Source: a virus. From it: 40,454 nt of DNA. Position 1 is the stretch's first letter, and each line of letters starts with the position of its first letter. Below are positions 4,501-37,666 of this stretch, piece after piece. Where the stretch lies: positions 1 through 40,454 of the IMG/VR virus record IMGVR_UViG_3300049893_001663. One strand, 5' to 3'. The notes below the pieces were generated by a model. The model made no database searches. It saw only the letters and a list, made by a program, of their open reading frames with translations, and was not told where the DNA came from. A program made the position numbers and the translations under genes.

Positions 4501-4710
4501 TTAGCACACCAATAGGGTAACTGGGCATTTTCTAGAACTTGTTATTCTCGTAAGTTCTTCTCTTTCCAAGACAATCGTATTCGCGTTTCTCGAATACGTT
4601 GTTCTCACACAAGACTCTGCATCTCCTTGTGAGCCTTCTGTGGCTACAACACAAATAAACTCAGGCTCTTCTCCGATTTCCACTAAAAAAGCAAACTGTT
4701 TTGTGCTCAT
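4501..4710 (-). CDS. Hypothetical early protein (69 aa)
   Basis: 69 residues, first gene behind the strong promoter at 4772-4800, with a very good ribosome site (GGAGGTGAGAA before the ATG). The N-terminal half is beta-like and acidic (AFLVEIGEEPEFICVVATEG); the C-terminal half is basic with two Cys. The promoter and ribosome site imply high early expression, typical of host-takeover proteins, but no function is recognised. Confidence 0.68.
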   Translation of the reverse strand: MSTKQFAFLVEIGEEPEFICVVATEGSQGDAESCVRTTYSRNANTIVLEREELTRITSSRKCPVTLLVC

Positions 4711-4771: not shown

Positions 4772-4800
4772 ATCATATCAGCCCATCCGTGGGCTGTCAA
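4772..4800 (-). promoter_or_regulatory. Near-consensus sigma70 promoter with palindromic spacer (leftward)
   Basis: On the minus strand, TTGACA (4795-4800), a 17-bp spacer, and TATGAT (4772-4777). The spacer carries an inverted repeat, AGCCCA-CGGA-TGGGCT, whose outer base overlaps the -35. That could be an operator placed so that a bound protein blocks RNA polymerase. It drives the gene at 4501-4710 and probably the operon beyond. Confidence 0.75.
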
Positions 4801-4844
4801 TAAGATTCGTGGGTGCTGTGGCGATCCTCGACCGCGAAACGCGG

Positions 4845-5129
4845 CCCGTATTTCCCCAATAGTACCCTGTTAGCACCCAATGTGCGCCACCCGTGGCCCG
4901 ACCCCCCGTCTCAATCTCCCAAGCATTCTCTCTCCCCAGCATTCTCCTCCTCCCTCCTTCCTTCCCATTCAAGTTATAAAAAAATATATGATGAATACAG
5001 GGGAAATATGAGATGAGGTTGGGGGAAGTGTGAAGCATGAAGTGTGCGTAGCGGTAGGATTGAGAGAGGGGGTCGGACGCAAACGGTCGCACCCTGGGTA
5101 CTAACAGGGTGCTAACGGGGAAATCCGGG
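4845..5129. other. Large imperfect inverted repeat with iterons and AT-rich centre: candidate replication origin or control element
   Basis: The left arm (about 4845-4916) matches the reverse complement of the right arm (about 5058-5129) over roughly 70 bp, for example CCGACCCCCCGTCTCAATC at 4898-4916 against GATTGAGAGAGGGGGTCGG at 5058-5076. Each arm has two boxes of consensus GTTAGYACCC spaced 11 bp: 4858-4867 (variant) and 4869-4878 on plus, 5096-5105 and 5107-5116 on minus. The middle is pyrimidine-rich then purine-rich around an AT-rich core (4971-4998, TTATAAAAAAATATATG). Iterons plus an AT-rich unwinding region suggest an origin. No clear DnaA box was seen. This fills most of the 458-bp gene gap 4711-5168. 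Confidence 0.6.
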
Positions 5130-5168
5130 ATTTCCGTATCCCGGGATTCCCCGACCGTCTGTCCCGAG

Positions 5169-5498
5169 TTATTCGGGCCGCATCCGGGCCAATTCCGCGC
5201 GCAACTCAGCAATTTCCGCCTGTTGCTTGTGGAATTTTTGCTCGTATTCCGCGACGACGGCGCCGCGATCCGGTCCATCGAGCCATGATTTAATCCGGGC
5301 AATGTCTCCAGACATGTCAGCGACGATTTTGACGACGAGCAATTCGTCGTTCGTGCGCGCCCCGTGCGTTCCAAGGCCCGTCACTCGTGCGATACCCTTC
5401 GCGGCGGGAATCGTAATTGACGCCTTGGTCTGCAGATTCGTGACCGTGAGCGCCCGAGTTTCCCCCTCGCCTGTCCATTGATATACATTCTTTGCCAT
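5169..5498 (-). CDS. Hypothetical first early protein with C-terminal coiled coil (109 aa)
   Basis: 109 residues starting MAKNVYQWTGEGETRAL. The N-terminal two thirds is beta-rich; the last 30 residues form a coiled coil (EQKFHKQQAEIAELRAELAR). The ATG at 5498 is preferred over 5510 because GGAGG lies 7 bases upstream. It is the first leftward gene behind the promoter at 5539-5567 and stands apart from the rest of the operon across the inverted-repeat element. That position would suit an early regulator or origin-binding protein, which is inference only. Confidence 0.66.
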   Translation of the reverse strand: MAKNVYQWTGEGETRALTVTNLQTKASITIPAAKGIARVTGLGTHGARTNDELLVVKIVADMSGDIARIKSWLDGPDRGAVVAEYEQKFHKQQAEIAELRAELARMRPE

Positions 5499-5774: not shown

Positions 5775-5869
5775 GCGGGGGCACCCCCACCGGGCCAAAC
5801 TTTAGGGAGGGGTACACTGTGCTTGTGGGGCCCCCTCCAGCTAGGTAGAGCTTAGTGAATCTCGACCGC

Positions 5870-5885
5870 ATTACGAAAGCGTAAT
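5870..5885 (+). other. Leader hairpin upstream of the terminase genes
   Basis: ATTACG, loop AAAG, CGTAAT: a perfect 6-bp stem 55 bases before the first late start codon. Tracts GGTAGAGC (upstream) and GTCGAATCCCG (downstream) recall tRNA D and T arms, but the region does not fold as a tRNA. It may be a structured 5' leader. Confidence 0.35.
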
Positions 5886-5939
5886 TCGGGCGTCGAATCC
5901 CGCCGACCCCGCACCCGGCTTGCGCCCGCCCGCCAAGTC

Positions 5940-6482
5940 ATGCACAATTCGGCCCACAACCCCCGCGAGTCTAGCATGCCGAACGACAGAAGCGAACTCG
6001 TACTCCCCGATGGCACGGTGATTCCAGTGCCGCCCGGCCCGCCCCGGCCAGCCCGTTTCGTACAGACGCGGGAACAGCCGATCCAGAAGCTTCGGTGGAC
6101 CCACGACCTTGCGATTGACATGATGCTGCAGAATCCCGAGTGGGATCAGCGGCGTCTGGCCCAGTACTTCGGGTACAGCGATGCCTGGGTGTGCATGGTG
6201 ATTGCGAGTGATGGGTTCCAGGCGAAGCTCGCGGAGCGCCGGGATGAGGTTCTGAACCCGGAGGTGAAGCTTCAGATTGAGGAACGCTTTCGGGCCCTGG
6301 CGAACCACTCGCTCTCTCGGCTCCACGAGAAGCTCGAGAACCCTAATGCGAGTGATAACCTCGTGCTGAGGAGTGTTGAACTTGCGGCGAAGGCGCTGGG
6401 CCTAGGTGCTCGGGCGCCTATGGTCTCCGCGAACGTGCAGGTTGCGATAGTTGTGCCTCCGAAAGAGGCCCGGGTGGCGTAG
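5940..6482 (+). CDS. Terminase small subunit (probable)
   Basis: DNA-recognition subunit of the packaging motor. 180 residues: a Pro-rich start, then a helix-turn-helix-like block (DQRRLAQYFGYSDAWVCMVI) and a helical oligomerisation part with SDGFQAKLAERRDEVLNPEV, ending ELAAKALGLGARAP. This is the pattern of small terminases in related phages, and the large subunit lies about 450 bases downstream. Two in-frame ATGs, 5940 and 5976, are possible; neither has a good ribosome site. First gene of the late operon. Confidence 0.75.
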   Translation: MHNSAHNPRESSMPNDRSELVLPDGTVIPVPPGPPRPARFVQTREQPIQKLRWTHDLAIDMMLQNPEWDQRRLAQYFGYSDAWVCMVIASDGFQAKLAERRDEVLNPEVKLQIEERFRALANHSLSRLHEKLENPNASDNLVLRSVELAAKALGLGARAPMVSANVQVAIVVPPKEARVA

Positions 6483-32573: not shown

Positions 32574-32792
32574 TCACGAGTCTTTGAAGTTCACCCCAGC
32601 GGCTTTCATACAATCGCGGGAGTCTTTGCACTTAATCTGCTTCCGGTTGTAGAACCCCCGCCAGTCCTGGACGGTCTGTTCGGAGACTCCGAGCCGAGAG
32701 GCCAAGAGCCCCGTTCGGATCTTGCGATTCGCTGCGAAGAATGCCCACGGACAGCACCAATGTGATTCACGGAGAAGGTCTTCGAATTTCAC
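32574..32792 (-). CDS. Small HTH-like protein (72 aa)
   Basis: 72 residues, GTG start with a GTGA overlap to the helicase stop. LLASRLGVSEQTVQDWRGFY is a helix-turn-helix of the transposase/terminase-small-like kind, flanked by Cys (CC near 13 and two in IKCKDSRDC). It may be an early regulator or DNA-binding accessory of the helicase. Target unknown. Confidence 0.62.
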   Translation of the reverse strand: MKFEDLLRESHWCCPWAFFAANRKIRTGLLASRLGVSEQTVQDWRGFYNRKQIKCKDSRDCMKAAGVNFKDS

Positions 32793-34015
32793 GGTCGTAT
32801 TACCTCATCGTTATTCGGTCGGGAATCAATAGGCTCTAGAAAAGCTTGCTTCCCCTCGTACACGAGGCGGACAACCTGAGCCCGTAGGGCTGTCGTGAGC
32901 ATACCTTCGAAATCTCGTGCGTCGGGAAAGTACGTTTGAGCGAAGCGATAGACTTCTTCATATCGCATTCGGCCTCTTCGGTGGATGAGTGAAATCAGCC
33001 GGTCCATGTGCCCACTGGCTTCGTTCTGTCCCAGGCGAGCGAAAACCTTTGGCATGTCACTCTCAAGGTCTGTGACCATTGTGTTCGCGAGAACAAGATC
33101 TTCGAGTTCAATCCTCATCGTGTCCCGTTGGGATGCTGAGATCACCATTGCGAGCTTGTGGATGTGGGTTTGCTTCCGCGCTATGTATCCCCCGAATCTC
33201 TGATCATCGAGCCCGTCTGGGCGATTCTCGTAGTGGTCTTGGTACCATTGGGTGCCCCAGGTTATGGCTTCCCGCGTTAGGGTGAACTCTCCGCACATCG
33301 TTGCGGCTACGTACTCGAGGTCGTGGACAAGCTCTATCGCCCGGTCCGCCATTCCAGCGGGAACTCGCTCCCGCGGGTAGGCGACGTACTTTTCCTTCGC
33401 ATCTGCGAAAACGAAGACGCAACGGGAGGTAAAGCCCCCGCCGATGAGGTACTCTGGGAAATTCCCCGCGATCCACGAAGGCGTCGTGCAGGCTACGATG
33501 TTGATCCAAGGATTCACGATTTCGTCTGTCCCCGCGAGCTTGGTCACCTTCCTCATCGTCCCCTGGCGGCCGTCCCACAGCGTGACGAGCAGGTCTATCA
33601 TGTCCCTGTCATCTGGGTTGAGCAAGTTCCCGAATTCGCTCGACTCGATCGTGATCGCGCTCATCGCGTGGAAAACTCCATCAAGTTCAAACGCCTCGCC
33701 CGACTCCGCAAGAGACTTGGCTAAAGCTTGCCACGTCACGATCTCCGGGCCGAACTTGACCCCTGGGACTTGGCGAAGGAGACTCATTCCGATACTCGCA
33801 GTTGTGGATTTCGATACGATCCCGGGAGGGGCGACGAGGATGATGTAGAAGTTTGGGTACCATCGAAAGTACACCTGGTCAATCCACACTCGTCGGCGGA
33901 GCGCGCCCGCAAGGGTTGAAACTCCGACCCAGAAGTACATACGCTTTGGGGCCTCGCCGAAGCTCGCGTAGTCGACGAACGATTGAAGCCAATTTTCAAG
34001 ATGTCGGCCACTCAC
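32789..34015 (-). CDS. DUF3987-like primase/helicase ATPase
   Basis: 408 residues, GTG start with GTGA overlap to the polymerase gene. Starts LENWLQSFVDYASFGEAPKR and YFWVGVSTLAGALRRRVWID. The P-loop region is YIILVAPPGIVSKSTTASIG (residues 57-76), a degenerate Walker A with Ser in place of the Gly before Lys69. ITIESSEFGNLLNP supplies a Walker B-like acidic region, followed by NIVACTTPSWI (sensor-like). This matches the DUF3987-type helicases found next to polymerases in phages and plasmids. It likely unwinds DNA for the adjacent polymerase. Confidence 0.72.
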   Translation of the reverse strand: MSGRHLENWLQSFVDYASFGEAPKRMYFWVGVSTLAGALRRRVWIDQVYFRWYPNFYIILVAPPGIVSKSTTASIGMSLLRQVPGVKFGPEIVTWQALAKSLAESGEAFELDGVFHAMSAITIESSEFGNLLNPDDRDMIDLLVTLWDGRQGTMRKVTKLAGTDEIVNPWINIVACTTPSWIAGNFPEYLIGGGFTSRCVFVFADAKEKYVAYPRERVPAGMADRAIELVHDLEYVAATMCGEFTLTREAITWGTQWYQDHYENRPDGLDDQRFGGYIARKQTHIHKLAMVISASQRDTMRIELEDLVLANTMVTDLESDMPKVFARLGQNEASGHMDRLISLIHRRGRMRYEEVYRFAQTYFPDARDFEGMLTTALRAQVVRLVYEGKQAFLEPIDSRPNNDEVIRP

Positions 34016-36354
34016 TCACACTCCCCCCAGGACTTGGTTGATGTTTTTATTCCAACTGGGATAATCAGCGGGTCTTCATACGGGACGAGGATTTGAGCCT
34101 CTTCTCGGAGCCTACGGATTACCCACTCGCCGAGGTGCGTCGGGAACTGGCCCGCGAGGGAGTCGTGGACTTGGAGGAGGACTTGGGCCTCCCGGAGGTT
34201 CTTGTGGATGTTGACGAAAGCTCGGTTGATGACGCAGGCGACTGTGGACTGGGGGATCCAGGCGAGGGCTTCCGGGAGCAGGCCTTCCACACGGTCGAAG
34301 TAAAATCTACGATATCCAAAGCGATTTGTAACACATCTCTTGGATGCAAGATCAGCTTCCGTCCTGACGTGCCAATCACGTATTCCAGGGTGGGCGACAA
34401 ACCAGCGAGAACGCCGTCTTTCAGCTTCATGGACGGAAATTCCGCAGTTAATAGCCATCGTTCTTGGACCCCCACCGTAGTTTGTCCCGTGGACCCAGGC
34501 CTTTGCAGCCGGACGACTAATTCCCAGAACTTTGGCGTTCTCGCTATGGATATCCACCCCCTCACGGAGCATCGCTTTGAGCTCTCCGTCATCGGCTTCC
34601 CATACCACCACCTGAAGGTCCGCGCGGTCCAGGTCCATGTCGAAGAATGTGAATCCAGTATCGGGTATGAAGAGTCGGCGGACATTGGGAAGCTCCAGGT
34701 CGTCAGGGTCCTCGGGCACAGTGCCTTTGGGCAGGTTTTGAAGGTTTGTCCCAGAACCAAAGGCGTTCTTGGAACTCGAGAAGCGGAAAGTCTCCGTTCC
34801 ACAGATGTTGAACGAGCAACGCATCCGTCCGTCCCAGTCGAGCTTGGCCTCGACGAAGGTTGAGCGGAATACGCCGAGGGAACGGATCTCAGCGATCTTG
34901 CGGACGAGCGGACCGAGCAGGGGCTCGCGGGTGGCGATGAGCGTGAGCGCGTCGTCGTCGAGCGTTGGCTGTCCAGTCTTGCGATTGTGGATTACCTTTT
35001 GCCCCAGATCGGTGTAGAACAGGTTGTGCATTTGGATTGGGGATCGCGGGTTGAGGCGGTAACCCAATACGGCCTCGAACCAGGCCTCACGGGCCTCGAT
35101 CTCGGAAGCGAGTTCGAAAGAGAATGCTGCCTTTTGGGATGTGTCGATCCGAACTCCGCGCGTCATGGCTTCGAGGACGGCGGAGAACAGTTCGTGCTGG
35201 AAAGTCTCGACCGAGGAGAGACTGAGCTCTTTACAGATATTGCGAGTCGTGTCCGCGCATTCGAGGGTCCGAATTGCGTCTTCGCAGTTGTAGTACCAGA
35301 GTTGGTCCTCGCCGACCTTCGGGTCCCACTCCTTCCCATCGTCTTTCCAGTACACGTAGTGGGAACAGTAGATTGAGGCTTGGAAGTCGAGAGCCTTGGG
35401 GAGGCCCGCAAACGCTACGTGATGGCTGACCATTGTGTCCTGGCCCAGGCGGGGGATGAAGCACCACCAGCGGTAAGTGTACTGGAAGTCGTAGAGGAGA
35501 TTCTGCCCTACGACCTCAGCATTCGGATGGCAAAGCACTCGCTGGAGGAGCCAGAGGATCTGGGCCTCTTCCTCCGCGAGCCAGTAGCCGTCCTGCCGCT
35601 CCACGCACATGAAGGGGATGCAATACGCTCTGTCCGCGAAAGGCGCTATCCCGGCGCAAGCTATGTGACCCGCCCGAGTCTCAAGGTCGAAGGAGATTCG
35701 GTGTGGGCCAAGGTCGAGAATAGTCAGCGTGGCTTTGAGTGCGTTGATTGCTTGCTCGAACGTGGGACGGAGGACGAGAGACCACTCGGGGACTGTGAAG
35801 TCCCGGGACTCGATGTGCTTTGCCGCTCGCCGCAAGTCGTGGACAGCCGCGGATCTCCACGACCACTGACGGAGGATTGCGGCGGGATGGTACGTCGGGA
35901 CGACCCAGGCACCGCTTGGATGCCGGAGTTCGCTTCCCCGCCACTTCGTTATCCCGAGCTTGCCGGTCAAGGCCCAGAGGGCGGTGTTCCCGAAAGCGAC
36001 GATCACATTCGGCTTGACCATCTCGACTTCCCGCTCGAGGAGCTCGACCCCCTCGGCTACGATCTGGGTCATCCAGATCCCACGGAACGGGGCGCACTGG
36101 ACTTCTGTCCGGGCCTTGCCTTTCAAGTTGAACCAAGCCCCGATTTCGTTCTTTGGCGGCCTCGCGCGGCAGACGTTCGTTACGAATGCTTCGGAACGGA
36201 GAATCCCAGCCTCGTGAAGCATCCGATCGAGTTCCATTCCGCTCACGCCGACGAAGGGGATGCCAAGACGTTCCTCGGACTCCCCTGGGGCCTCACCCAC
36301 GAGCATGATCCTCGCGGGGCAAGGTCCAACTGGACGGATTTGAGGGAGGGTCAT
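34012..36354 (-). CDS. Uracil-DNA glycosylase / DNA polymerase I fusion (replicative polymerase)
   Basis: 780 residues. Residues 1-185 are a family-4-like uracil-DNA glycosylase domain: LVGEAPGESEERLGIPFVG and HPAAIL (156-161). Residues 215-360 are a 3'-5' exonuclease with SFDLET (Asp223, Glu225), QNLLYDF (Asp289) and YYNCED (Tyr355, Asp359). Residues 380-780 are a family A polymerase: motif A DMDLDRADLQ (Asp574, Asp579), motif B KAWVHGTNYGG (Lys618, His622, Tyr626), motif C QVHDSL (His730, Asp731, Ser732). The metal-binding Asp residues are kept, but the Glu, Phe and Glu usual in motifs A, B and C are Asp, His and Ser. No ribosome site of its own; coupled to an 8-codon leader. Main replication enzyme. 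Confidence 0.92.
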   Translation of the reverse strand: MTLPQIRPVGPCPARIMLVGEAPGESEERLGIPFVGVSGMELDRMLHEAGILRSEAFVTNVCRARPPKNEIGAWFNLKGKARTEVQCAPFRGIWMTQIVAEGVELLEREVEMVKPNVIVAFGNTALWALTGKLGITKWRGSELRHPSGAWVVPTYHPAAILRQWSWRSAAVHDLRRAAKHIESRDFTVPEWSLVLRPTFEQAINALKATLTILDLGPHRISFDLETRAGHIACAGIAPFADRAYCIPFMCVERQDGYWLAEEEAQILWLLQRVLCHPNAEVVGQNLLYDFQYTYRWWCFIPRLGQDTMVSHHVAFAGLPKALDFQASIYCSHYVYWKDDGKEWDPKVGEDQLWYYNCEDAIRTLECADTTRNICKELSLSSVETFQHELFSAVLEAMTRGVRIDTSQKAAFSFELASEIEAREAWFEAVLGYRLNPRSPIQMHNLFYTDLGQKVIHNRKTGQPTLDDDALTLIATREPLLGPLVRKIAEIRSLGVFRSTFVEAKLDWDGRMRCSFNICGTETFRFSSSKNAFGSGTNLQNLPKGTVPEDPDDLELPNVRRLFIPDTGFTFFDMDLDRADLQVVVWEADDGELKAMLREGVDIHSENAKVLGISRPAAKAWVHGTNYGGGPRTMAINCGISVHEAERRRSRWFVAHPGIRDWHVRTEADLASKRCVTNRFGYRRFYFDRVEGLLPEALAWIPQSTVACVINRAFVNIHKNLREAQVLLQVHDSLAGQFPTHLGEWVIRRLREEAQILVPYEDPLIIPVGIKTSTKSWGECE

Positions 36355-36377
36355 GTTAGGCTTTCGTCGGTTTTCAT
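36351..36377 (-). CDS. Eight-codon leader minigene before the polymerase
   Basis: ATG at 36377, stop overlapping the polymerase ATG; encodes MKTDESLT. Its ribosome site AAGGAG lies within the last codons of the methyltransferase gene. ATGA overlaps link it to both the methyltransferase stop (36374-36377) and the polymerase start (36351-36354). It probably serves to deliver ribosomes to the polymerase start rather than to make a functional peptide. Confidence 0.45.
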   Translation of the reverse strand: MKTDESLT

Positions 36378-37666
36378 TTGAGCTCCTTTATCCTCGTAAG
36401 AGCAATGCCGTAACTCGCGGGGTCGATCTCGAATCCCGTGGCTCGACACTTCAGCGCATGGGCCGCCGGGAAGACCGGGCCAGTTCCACAGAATGGATCG
36501 AGCACGGAATCCCCTGGGTGAACGGAGCGGGAGAGCAGGTCCTGGAACAGGGCCACCGGCTTCTGGGCCGAGTGCCCAAGGTTGTCGTCAGAGGGGAAGG
36601 TCAGCACGTCCCCGGCGATCCGGGTGACCGGTTTGGCCCCTTTGATGGCGAAGATGATTAGCTCGTATCGACGCTGGGGAGTGTGCTCTGGCCACGGAGT
36701 TCGCAGGCCTCCGGGCTTGTGCCAGATGAGCGGGGTCCGGTGCACCCACCAGCCTGCTTGCTCGAGCGCGTCTCGATAGTCAAAGAACCAATCTATGTCG
36801 CAGAAGACGTACATATGTGCTTGGGGCTTTACGAGTTTTAGGGCTTCGTATGCCAGGAACCGTAGGGCGGCGTCTGCGGCGTTGAAGGAATCGAGGTACC
36901 CGTGGGCACCTGCGGCCGCTCCGTCAGAATCCCCAAACTCGTCTGCACCTATCCCATAAGGTGGGTCGGTGATTATCACGTCGTAGAGTTCGAGGCCTGT
37001 CATTGCGAGATCGTAGCACGATCCGAGCCGCAGGGTGTGAGTCTCCGCCGTGAACTCCGCGCCGTATCGCTCTGCGAGCAAGGCGTTCTTCCGGCCTTCC
37101 TCTTGCCGCTTCAGCGCTTTGAAAGCTTCATCCACAGACTTCGCTTTCGCAACCTCTGGGTTGTGAAGATGCTGCGCGAGAATAAGCTCTTTGCGTGTCG
37201 TGGACTGGTACTCGCCATCTCGGCGGCCGCGAACTTCTTCAGCAATGTCTGCTGGTGTTGGCGGAGCCTCCCCACGGAGGCGTGCTTGCTCCCCACGAAT
37301 TTCGGCCACGCGGGAAACAGCCGTGGCCCGTTCTTGCCATGTGAGATCCGTGCGCTGAACGTTTTCTTCCAGCTCGGCTTCAAGGGCCGCGAGAGGAGAA
37401 AGCTCTCCGAGCGTGAGAGTCGGGACCTCATCTCGTCCCACTTCGACAGCTCCACAACGGAAAGATATCCCCAGTTGGTGAAGATCTCGGATTGCCCGAA
37501 GTCTCCGTTCCCCGGCGACGAGGGTTCCATTATCACGGACTACCACTGGGTGCAGCAGGCCGTGATCCCGGATGGACTCCATCAGAGAGTGGAGCTTCGC
37601 TGGGTCGAATTCCTTTCGCTGCCGATTCGATGGGATAACGATTTCTGAGATAGGTAATAGCTTCAC
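36374..37666 (-). CDS. ParB-like N-terminal domain / DNA methyltransferase fusion
   Basis: 430 residues, GTG start with GGGAGG upstream. Residues 1-120 are ParB/Srx-like: SEIVIPSNRQRKEFDP, IRDHGLLHPVVVRDNG and the GERRLRA box (52-58). Residues 205-430 are an amino-methyltransferase with TDPPYGIG (motif IV, 233-240), HSAQKP (365-370) and DPFCGTG (motif I, 390-396). The motif IV-before-I order marks the beta-type N6-adenine/N4-cytosine class. It could modify phage DNA against restriction; the ParB part may give sequence-specific binding. The first 134 bases overlap the end of the DUF1937 gene. Confidence 0.88.
   Translation of the reverse strand: MKLLPISEIVIPSNRQRKEFDPAKLHSLMESIRDHGLLHPVVVRDNGTLVAGERRLRAIRDLHQLGISFRCGAVEVGRDEVPTLTLGELSPLAALEAELEENVQRTDLTWQERATAVSRVAEIRGEQARLRGEAPPTPADIAEEVRGRRDGEYQSTTRKELILAQHLHNPEVAKAKSVDEAFKALKRQEEGRKNALLAERYGAEFTAETHTLRLGSCYDLAMTGLELYDVIITDPPYGIGADEFGDSDGAAAGAHGYLDSFNAADAALRFLAYEALKLVKPQAHMYVFCDIDWFFDYRDALEQAGWWVHRTPLIWHKPGGLRTPWPEHTPQRRYELIIFAIKGAKPVTRIAGDVLTFPSDDNLGHSAQKPVALFQDLLSRSVHPGDSVLDPFCGTGPVFPAAHALKCRATGFEIDPASYGIALTRIKELK

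Follow-up and report, generated by a model that had tools for sequence, protein, structure and literature searches.

A fast-diverging DNA hairpin with an AT-rich core beside the early genes of UDG-PolA phages: a candidate replication origin

Genes and features at the locus

The window, that is, the whole stretch of DNA analysed here, is IMGVR_UViG_3300049893_001663 and is 40,454 bases long. Its two ends share an overlap of 131 bases, one of them mismatched, and the genome therefore circularises at about 40.3 kb. Rightward from about 6 kb run the late genes (terminase, P22-like portal and structural genes). The leftward genes encode a DHH phosphoesterase, a DUF3987/primase-like protein, a UDG-PolA polymerase, a ParB-methyltransferase fusion and a Sak4-like protein. 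The element described here is located where this leftward early region begins. The features used below are the following.

4501-4710, minus strand: gene B, the next early gene, 69 aa; GGAGG before the ATG
4772-4800, minus strand: promoter-like site TTGACA-17-TATGAT, identified by its 11/12 consensus match only
4832-5144: whole foldback element (self-alignment, folding z-scores)
4832-4970, plus strand: left arm, pyrimidine-rich on this strand (self-alignment, base composition)
4858-4867, plus strand: degenerate box AATAGTACCC; absent from relatives
4869-4878, plus strand: exact box GTTAGCACCC (motif match); absent from relatives
4958-4997: AT-rich core, 31/40 A+T
5000-5144, plus strand: right arm, purine-rich on this strand (self-alignment, base composition)
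5096-5105, minus strand: exact box GTTAGTACCC (motif match); absent from relatives
5107-5116, minus strand: exact box GTTAGCACCC (motif match); absent from relatives
5172-5498, minus strand: gene A, the first early gene, 109 aa; GGAGG before the ATG; has the late operon on one side and the element on the other, a layout also seen in relatives
32789-34015, minus strand: DUF3987 protein, PHROG 'DNA primase', adjoining the polymerase (PHROG, Pfam)
34012-36354, minus strand: UDG-PolA DNA polymerase (Pfam PF03167 and PF00476), whose relatives carry the element

The polymerase consists of a uracil-DNA-glycosylase-superfamily domain (PF03167) fused to PolA, and the gene at 36374-37666 encodes an N6/N4 DNA methyltransferase with a fused ParB N-terminal domain. 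Directly ahead of the late operon is a tRNA-like stretch at 5827-5913 (GGGGCCC...GTCGAATCCCGCCGACCCCGCA); ARAGORN called no tRNA in the window, this stretch included. Within a 180-aa ORF at 5940-6482, a patch at 6160-6247 has 76-84% DNA identity to three of the polymerase relatives considered below (G007, G009 and G015), in which the DNA flanking the patch has no match.

The preliminary description placed the element between the first early gene and an early promoter and saw no credible gene in it, and we agree on both points: the element is flanked by gene A and by the promoter-like site, which reads leftward from 4800 to 4772, and a long ORF that spans it (198 aa, TTG start, 4778-5374, minus strand) overlaps gene A in a different frame and has no match in a PHROG family search. 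The ORFs that cross the element match nothing, and a protein-coding explanation was rejected.

A 313-base foldback with the AT maximum of the genome at its centre

The inverted repeat flagged at this locus is real, and is larger than first described. Its arms had been reported as imperfect reverse complements of about 70 bp. The imperfect complementarity stands, at 83% between 4845-4886 and 5088-5129 and 89% in a second paired block (4898-4916 with 5058-5076), but the length limit does not, as self-alignment gives a DNA hairpin of 313 bases, continuous although imperfect, over 4832-5144. A foldback scan identified this as the strongest foldback anywhere in the window. Compared with dinucleotide shuffles, the element folds with z-scores of -7.4 as DNA, -9.0 as plus-strand RNA and -10.1 as minus-strand RNA, and no shuffle matched it in any of the three. 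The left arm contains a 16-nt direct tandem repeat, TCTCCCAAGCATTCTC, at 4915-4946.

The reported switch at the centre from pyrimidine-rich to purine-rich sequence is seen in the composition of the arms, and the AT-rich centre was likewise borne out, the core being the most AT-rich 40-bp stretch of the genome. It therefore has the AT-richness expected of the unwinding region of a replication origin. It holds an A7/T7 run at 4978-4984; the window has just one other A/T run of length 7. Folding places the T run, close to the apex, in an AT helix whose pairing is weak, and not in a clean open loop.

The GTTAGYACCC boxes

Two GTTAGYACCC boxes had been reported in each arm. Three are exact, and the fourth (4858-4867) is degenerate; the 11-bp spacing and the orientation towards the centre were described correctly. 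With one mismatch allowed, three boxes are observed against 2.7 expected, which is chance level, so that only their placement is notable and not their number. The suggestion that they might be conserved in related phages failed: the pair is absent from all the polymerase relatives fetched, and from viral contigs. Since related phages do without them, the boxes are not the essence of the element, and sequence comparison marks them as incidental to it. The only occurrences of the box-pair pattern in genomes are in Pedobacter, where the 11-bp unit GTTAGYACCCT forms several arrays; these tandem repeats have no relation to this phage and were rejected as relatives of the element.

The same architecture occurs in phages with related polymerases

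A search of 50,697 phage records with the DNA of the element found no similar sequences, and relatives were therefore sought through the polymerase, their genomes being scanned for foldbacks without using any element sequence. Gene A used as a probe found no relatives, and TerL returned phages of another replication type, which were then taken as controls.

Many of the polymerase relatives have a standout foldback with an AT core, as a rule lying 5' of the polymerase at a distance of 8.5-16 kb; one genome (G054) is an exception, with its foldback downstream of the polymerase and lacking an AT core. In the UDG-PolA phages the element is a hairpin of 200-650 bp with an AT core and usually a run of T8-T10. 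The core is the AT maximum in seven of eight relatives (scanned over the whole genome for three and over a 20-kb piece for four). Read in the direction of the polymerase, most of the relatives' cores consist of TATA/ATAT followed by T8-T10, by A or C and by an AT stretch.

The runs were then used independently of position. We collected all A/T runs of at least 8 from 23 genomes, complete or nearly so and including the window, kept in each genome the run with the best foldback, and measured its position only afterwards. Such runs are present in 18 of the 23 genomes, and in 15 there is just one. In all 18, the best-scoring run lies 6.7-17.0 kb upstream of the polymerase; the z-score of its foldback against shuffles is 3.0-17.5, with no shuffle equal to it in 16 of the 18. 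The T is on the polymerase strand in 14 genomes and on the opposite strand in four. A foldback score of at least 25 was reached by 16/18 runs in the relatives and by 0/22 in 727 kb of control phage DNA (the TerL relatives, Serbin and Tiera), counts which are not probabilities because the relatives are not independent samples.

The five genomes with no run of this length are the window (A7), G022 (A7, weak), G020, MW202554 and G011. G020 and MW202554 have an element-like foldback with an AT core and no long run; in G011 no element was found in a scan that covered all but the last 1.7 kb. The MW202554 foldback is 660 bp long, at 35554-36215, with the centre ATATGATATTATTATATTATTATACTCATAT, and overlaps small annotated ORFs that are maybe spurious. 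In the most distant phages the foldback is weak (z 0.35 in the Caulobacter phage Kuura and -1.9 in the Vibrio phage VS-ABTNL-3).

In the genomes examined, the element lies in or beside a non-coding gap according to automatic and rough ORF calls. Two annotated genomes place the run in a gap at 43,883-44,433 (Mel-JY34) and at 40,606-41,293 (VS-ABTNL-3). Most genomes have one or two early genes on the late side of the element, with the late genes, which run in the opposite direction, starting about 1.2 kb away. The neighbouring genes and their number vary among relatives, and the hairpin stays. It is found with two terminase families (phrog_979/2 and phrog_38), always with the terminase genes within a few kb, and it tracks the polymerase.

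What is conserved is thus the hairpin architecture, the AT core with its T run, and the position beside the first early gene. On this comparative evidence, many of the phages with the UDG-PolA polymerase have this architecture at a corresponding position, spelled in unrelated letters. Because the architecture is conserved and the letters are not, ordinary similarity searches overlook the element. For most environmental phages the origin is unknown, its sequence not being conserved. A literature search, which covered few subscription journals, found the element described nowhere, and the Kuura paper names only the direct terminal repeat (DTR). We therefore regard the element as conserved and, so far as searched, undescribed in phages.

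The two arms change together

The pairing score of an arm with its own partner averages 38, and that of arms taken from different genomes averages 14. The left arms of G031 and G049 are 83% identical and the right arms 87%; their own scores are 37.5 and 36.5, and swapping the arms reduces them to 13 and 23.5. For G001 and G015 (arms 81% and 79% identical) the own scores are 31 and 41 and the swapped scores 17.5 and 21. In such near relatives, whose arms are 79-87% identical, good pairing is confined to the two arms of one genome; changes in one arm have been matched in the other, which indicates compensatory evolution. A homogenising mutation process (template switching) could also give rise to matched arms.

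On the polymerase strand, the 28 elements contain 176 G.U and 150 A.C mismatches (p 0.17); the counts for the window alone are 7 and 5. As there is no strand-specific excess of G.U, the selected form seems to be the DNA rather than one RNA strand.

GC skew

A cumulative GC skew extreme at the element had been put forward as support for an origin. Most relatives do have a skew minimum close to the element, but it mostly coincides with the divergence of early and late coding about 1.2 kb away; the skew is confounded with coding direction and is therefore not decisive. Only in Microcystis phage Mel-JY34 does the skew change sign at the element, within co-directional genes, the coding divergence lying 1.9 kb away and not being the site of the change. 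C, and not G, is in excess downstream of the element in this phage. Over Mel-JY34 42493-3444 (across the record start), the GC skew of genes in the same direction flips from G-rich to C-rich over the element.

Possible functions of the element

We consider that a large group of phages with UDG-PolA and a neighbouring DUF3987 primase-like protein probably has its replication origin, or a site of strand initiation, in this element. The origin proposed in the preliminary description thus has more support than any other reading, although on other grounds than those named there, since the boxes are absent from relatives. It is favoured because the core is the AT maximum, the T run is oriented, the stem co-evolves, and the association is with the polymerase and not with the terminase. 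Several observations are against it: the T run is not in a clean loop and is on the other strand in 4/18 genomes; the skew minimum is about 1.2 kb from the element in most genomes; and there are AT cores that have no run (G020, MW202554), a genome where no element was found (G011), and weak foldbacks in the distant phages.

The strongest counter-evidence comes from Kuura, where a DTR of 606 bp was determined with PhageTerm (PMC9959647). The only A/T run of at least 8 in Kuura is an A12 run at 43141-43152, and the left boundary of the DTR (base 43208; the repeat extends to 43813) is 56 bp past its end, a proximity with a likelihood of about 1% by chance. From this layout, the element may be the terminus, or origin and terminus may be close together. 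The main rival is therefore a site for concatemer processing, at which the hairpin would mark the terminase cut and the duplication of the DTR, and the constant proximity of the terminase genes is in its favour. We nevertheless consider it unlikely, given that the element is common to two terminase families and follows the polymerase, that Kuura is among the most divergent phages and has a DNA foldback no better than shuffles, and that its ends are the only ones mapped in the group.

An effect at the level of the transcript, with the early mRNA folding into a long hairpin here (for processing by RNase III, as a long non-coding RNA or as an anti-defence RNA), would suit the element's location within the early transcription unit and the very stable RNA folds of both strands. 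This appears less probable still, because the transcribed strand has no excess of G.U over A.C across the 28 elements, no Rfam model matches the element, and the best conserved part is the AT core, the part where an RNA hairpin would be weakest. Control of early transcription or of supercoiling at the DNA level (an operator hairpin or cruciform switch) would agree with the first early gene on one side of the element, a strong promoter-like site on the other and boxes resembling paired protein sites; however, the boxes are private to this phage and the hairpin persists while the neighbouring genes and their number differ, so that such a role is very improbable. We attach hardly any weight to a MITE with terminal inverted repeats: a foldback over the whole length with internal repeats is the typical shape of one, but the element is present as a single copy, with no hits in the phage records and no target-site duplication at its ends, and it occupies the same position in many divergent phages with arms that co-vary.

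Two named elements were also compared. The N4-type hairpin promoter was rejected: the N4-type giant virion RNA polymerase is about 3,500 aa long, and the largest ORF in the window, the portal protein, has only 795 aa. The CIRCE operator was set aside, as its spacing and orientation are different.

Because the element occurs with two terminase families and has no strand-specific G.U bias, a role of the DNA in replication fits best. If the element is an origin, origins could be found in many uncultured genomes by structure and position alone; the proposal could be tested in the cultured carriers Mel-JY34 and VS-ABTNL-3; and the widespread UDG-PolA replication module would be tied to its start site.

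Comparison with known systems

Iteron origins of theta plasmids and lambdoid phages resemble the element in having an AT-rich unwinding stretch, and the window adds two pairs of boxes at 11-bp spacing. They differ in that they have conserved initiator-binding repeats, while the boxes of the element are absent from relatives, and we know of no iteron origin built on a genome-specific 300-bp hairpin. The T7-type terminal repeat is similar in that the Kuura DTR boundary adjoins the element and that hairpin intermediates are reported in T7 concatemers; it is dissimilar in that the element spans different terminase families, and to our knowledge T7 lacks an AT-cored hairpin of this kind at the corresponding position.

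Other parallels are found among initiation sites that form hairpins. The oriV of RSF1010 has one such site on each strand, ssiA and ssiB, recognised by a plasmid-encoded primase (PMC4434180). These sites, of 40 nt, form a short hairpin and are defined in sequence, whereas the sequence of the element is unconserved and the DUF3987 protein is a putative primase. The mitochondrial light-strand origin OriL is a single small stem-loop. Its stem shuts out single-strand binding protein, and a T stretch is left free for priming (PMC4256270). The element resembles it in having stem-loop DNA and a T stretch, with a long stem and a central T run in most relatives; it differs in its stem of 100-300 bp and in its T run lying in an apical AT helix, and we claim no homology.

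By analogy with these systems, the hairpin and T run would, rather more probably than otherwise, form an origin working like OriL or the primase-loading ssi sites. The AT-rich core would melt first, and the separated strands, or a cruciform, would fold into the long hairpin, from which single-strand binding protein would be excluded. Near the apex the T run would stay exposed, and a primer could be laid there and then passed to the phage polymerase; the neighbouring DUF3987 protein, as a putative primase, is a candidate for the priming protein. More tentatively, at somewhat less than an even chance, the element may represent an undescribed class of origin: a long and fast-diverging hairpin that keeps its self-complementarity, AT apex and oriented T run, the counterpart of OriL for UDG-PolA, and possibly also the genome end.
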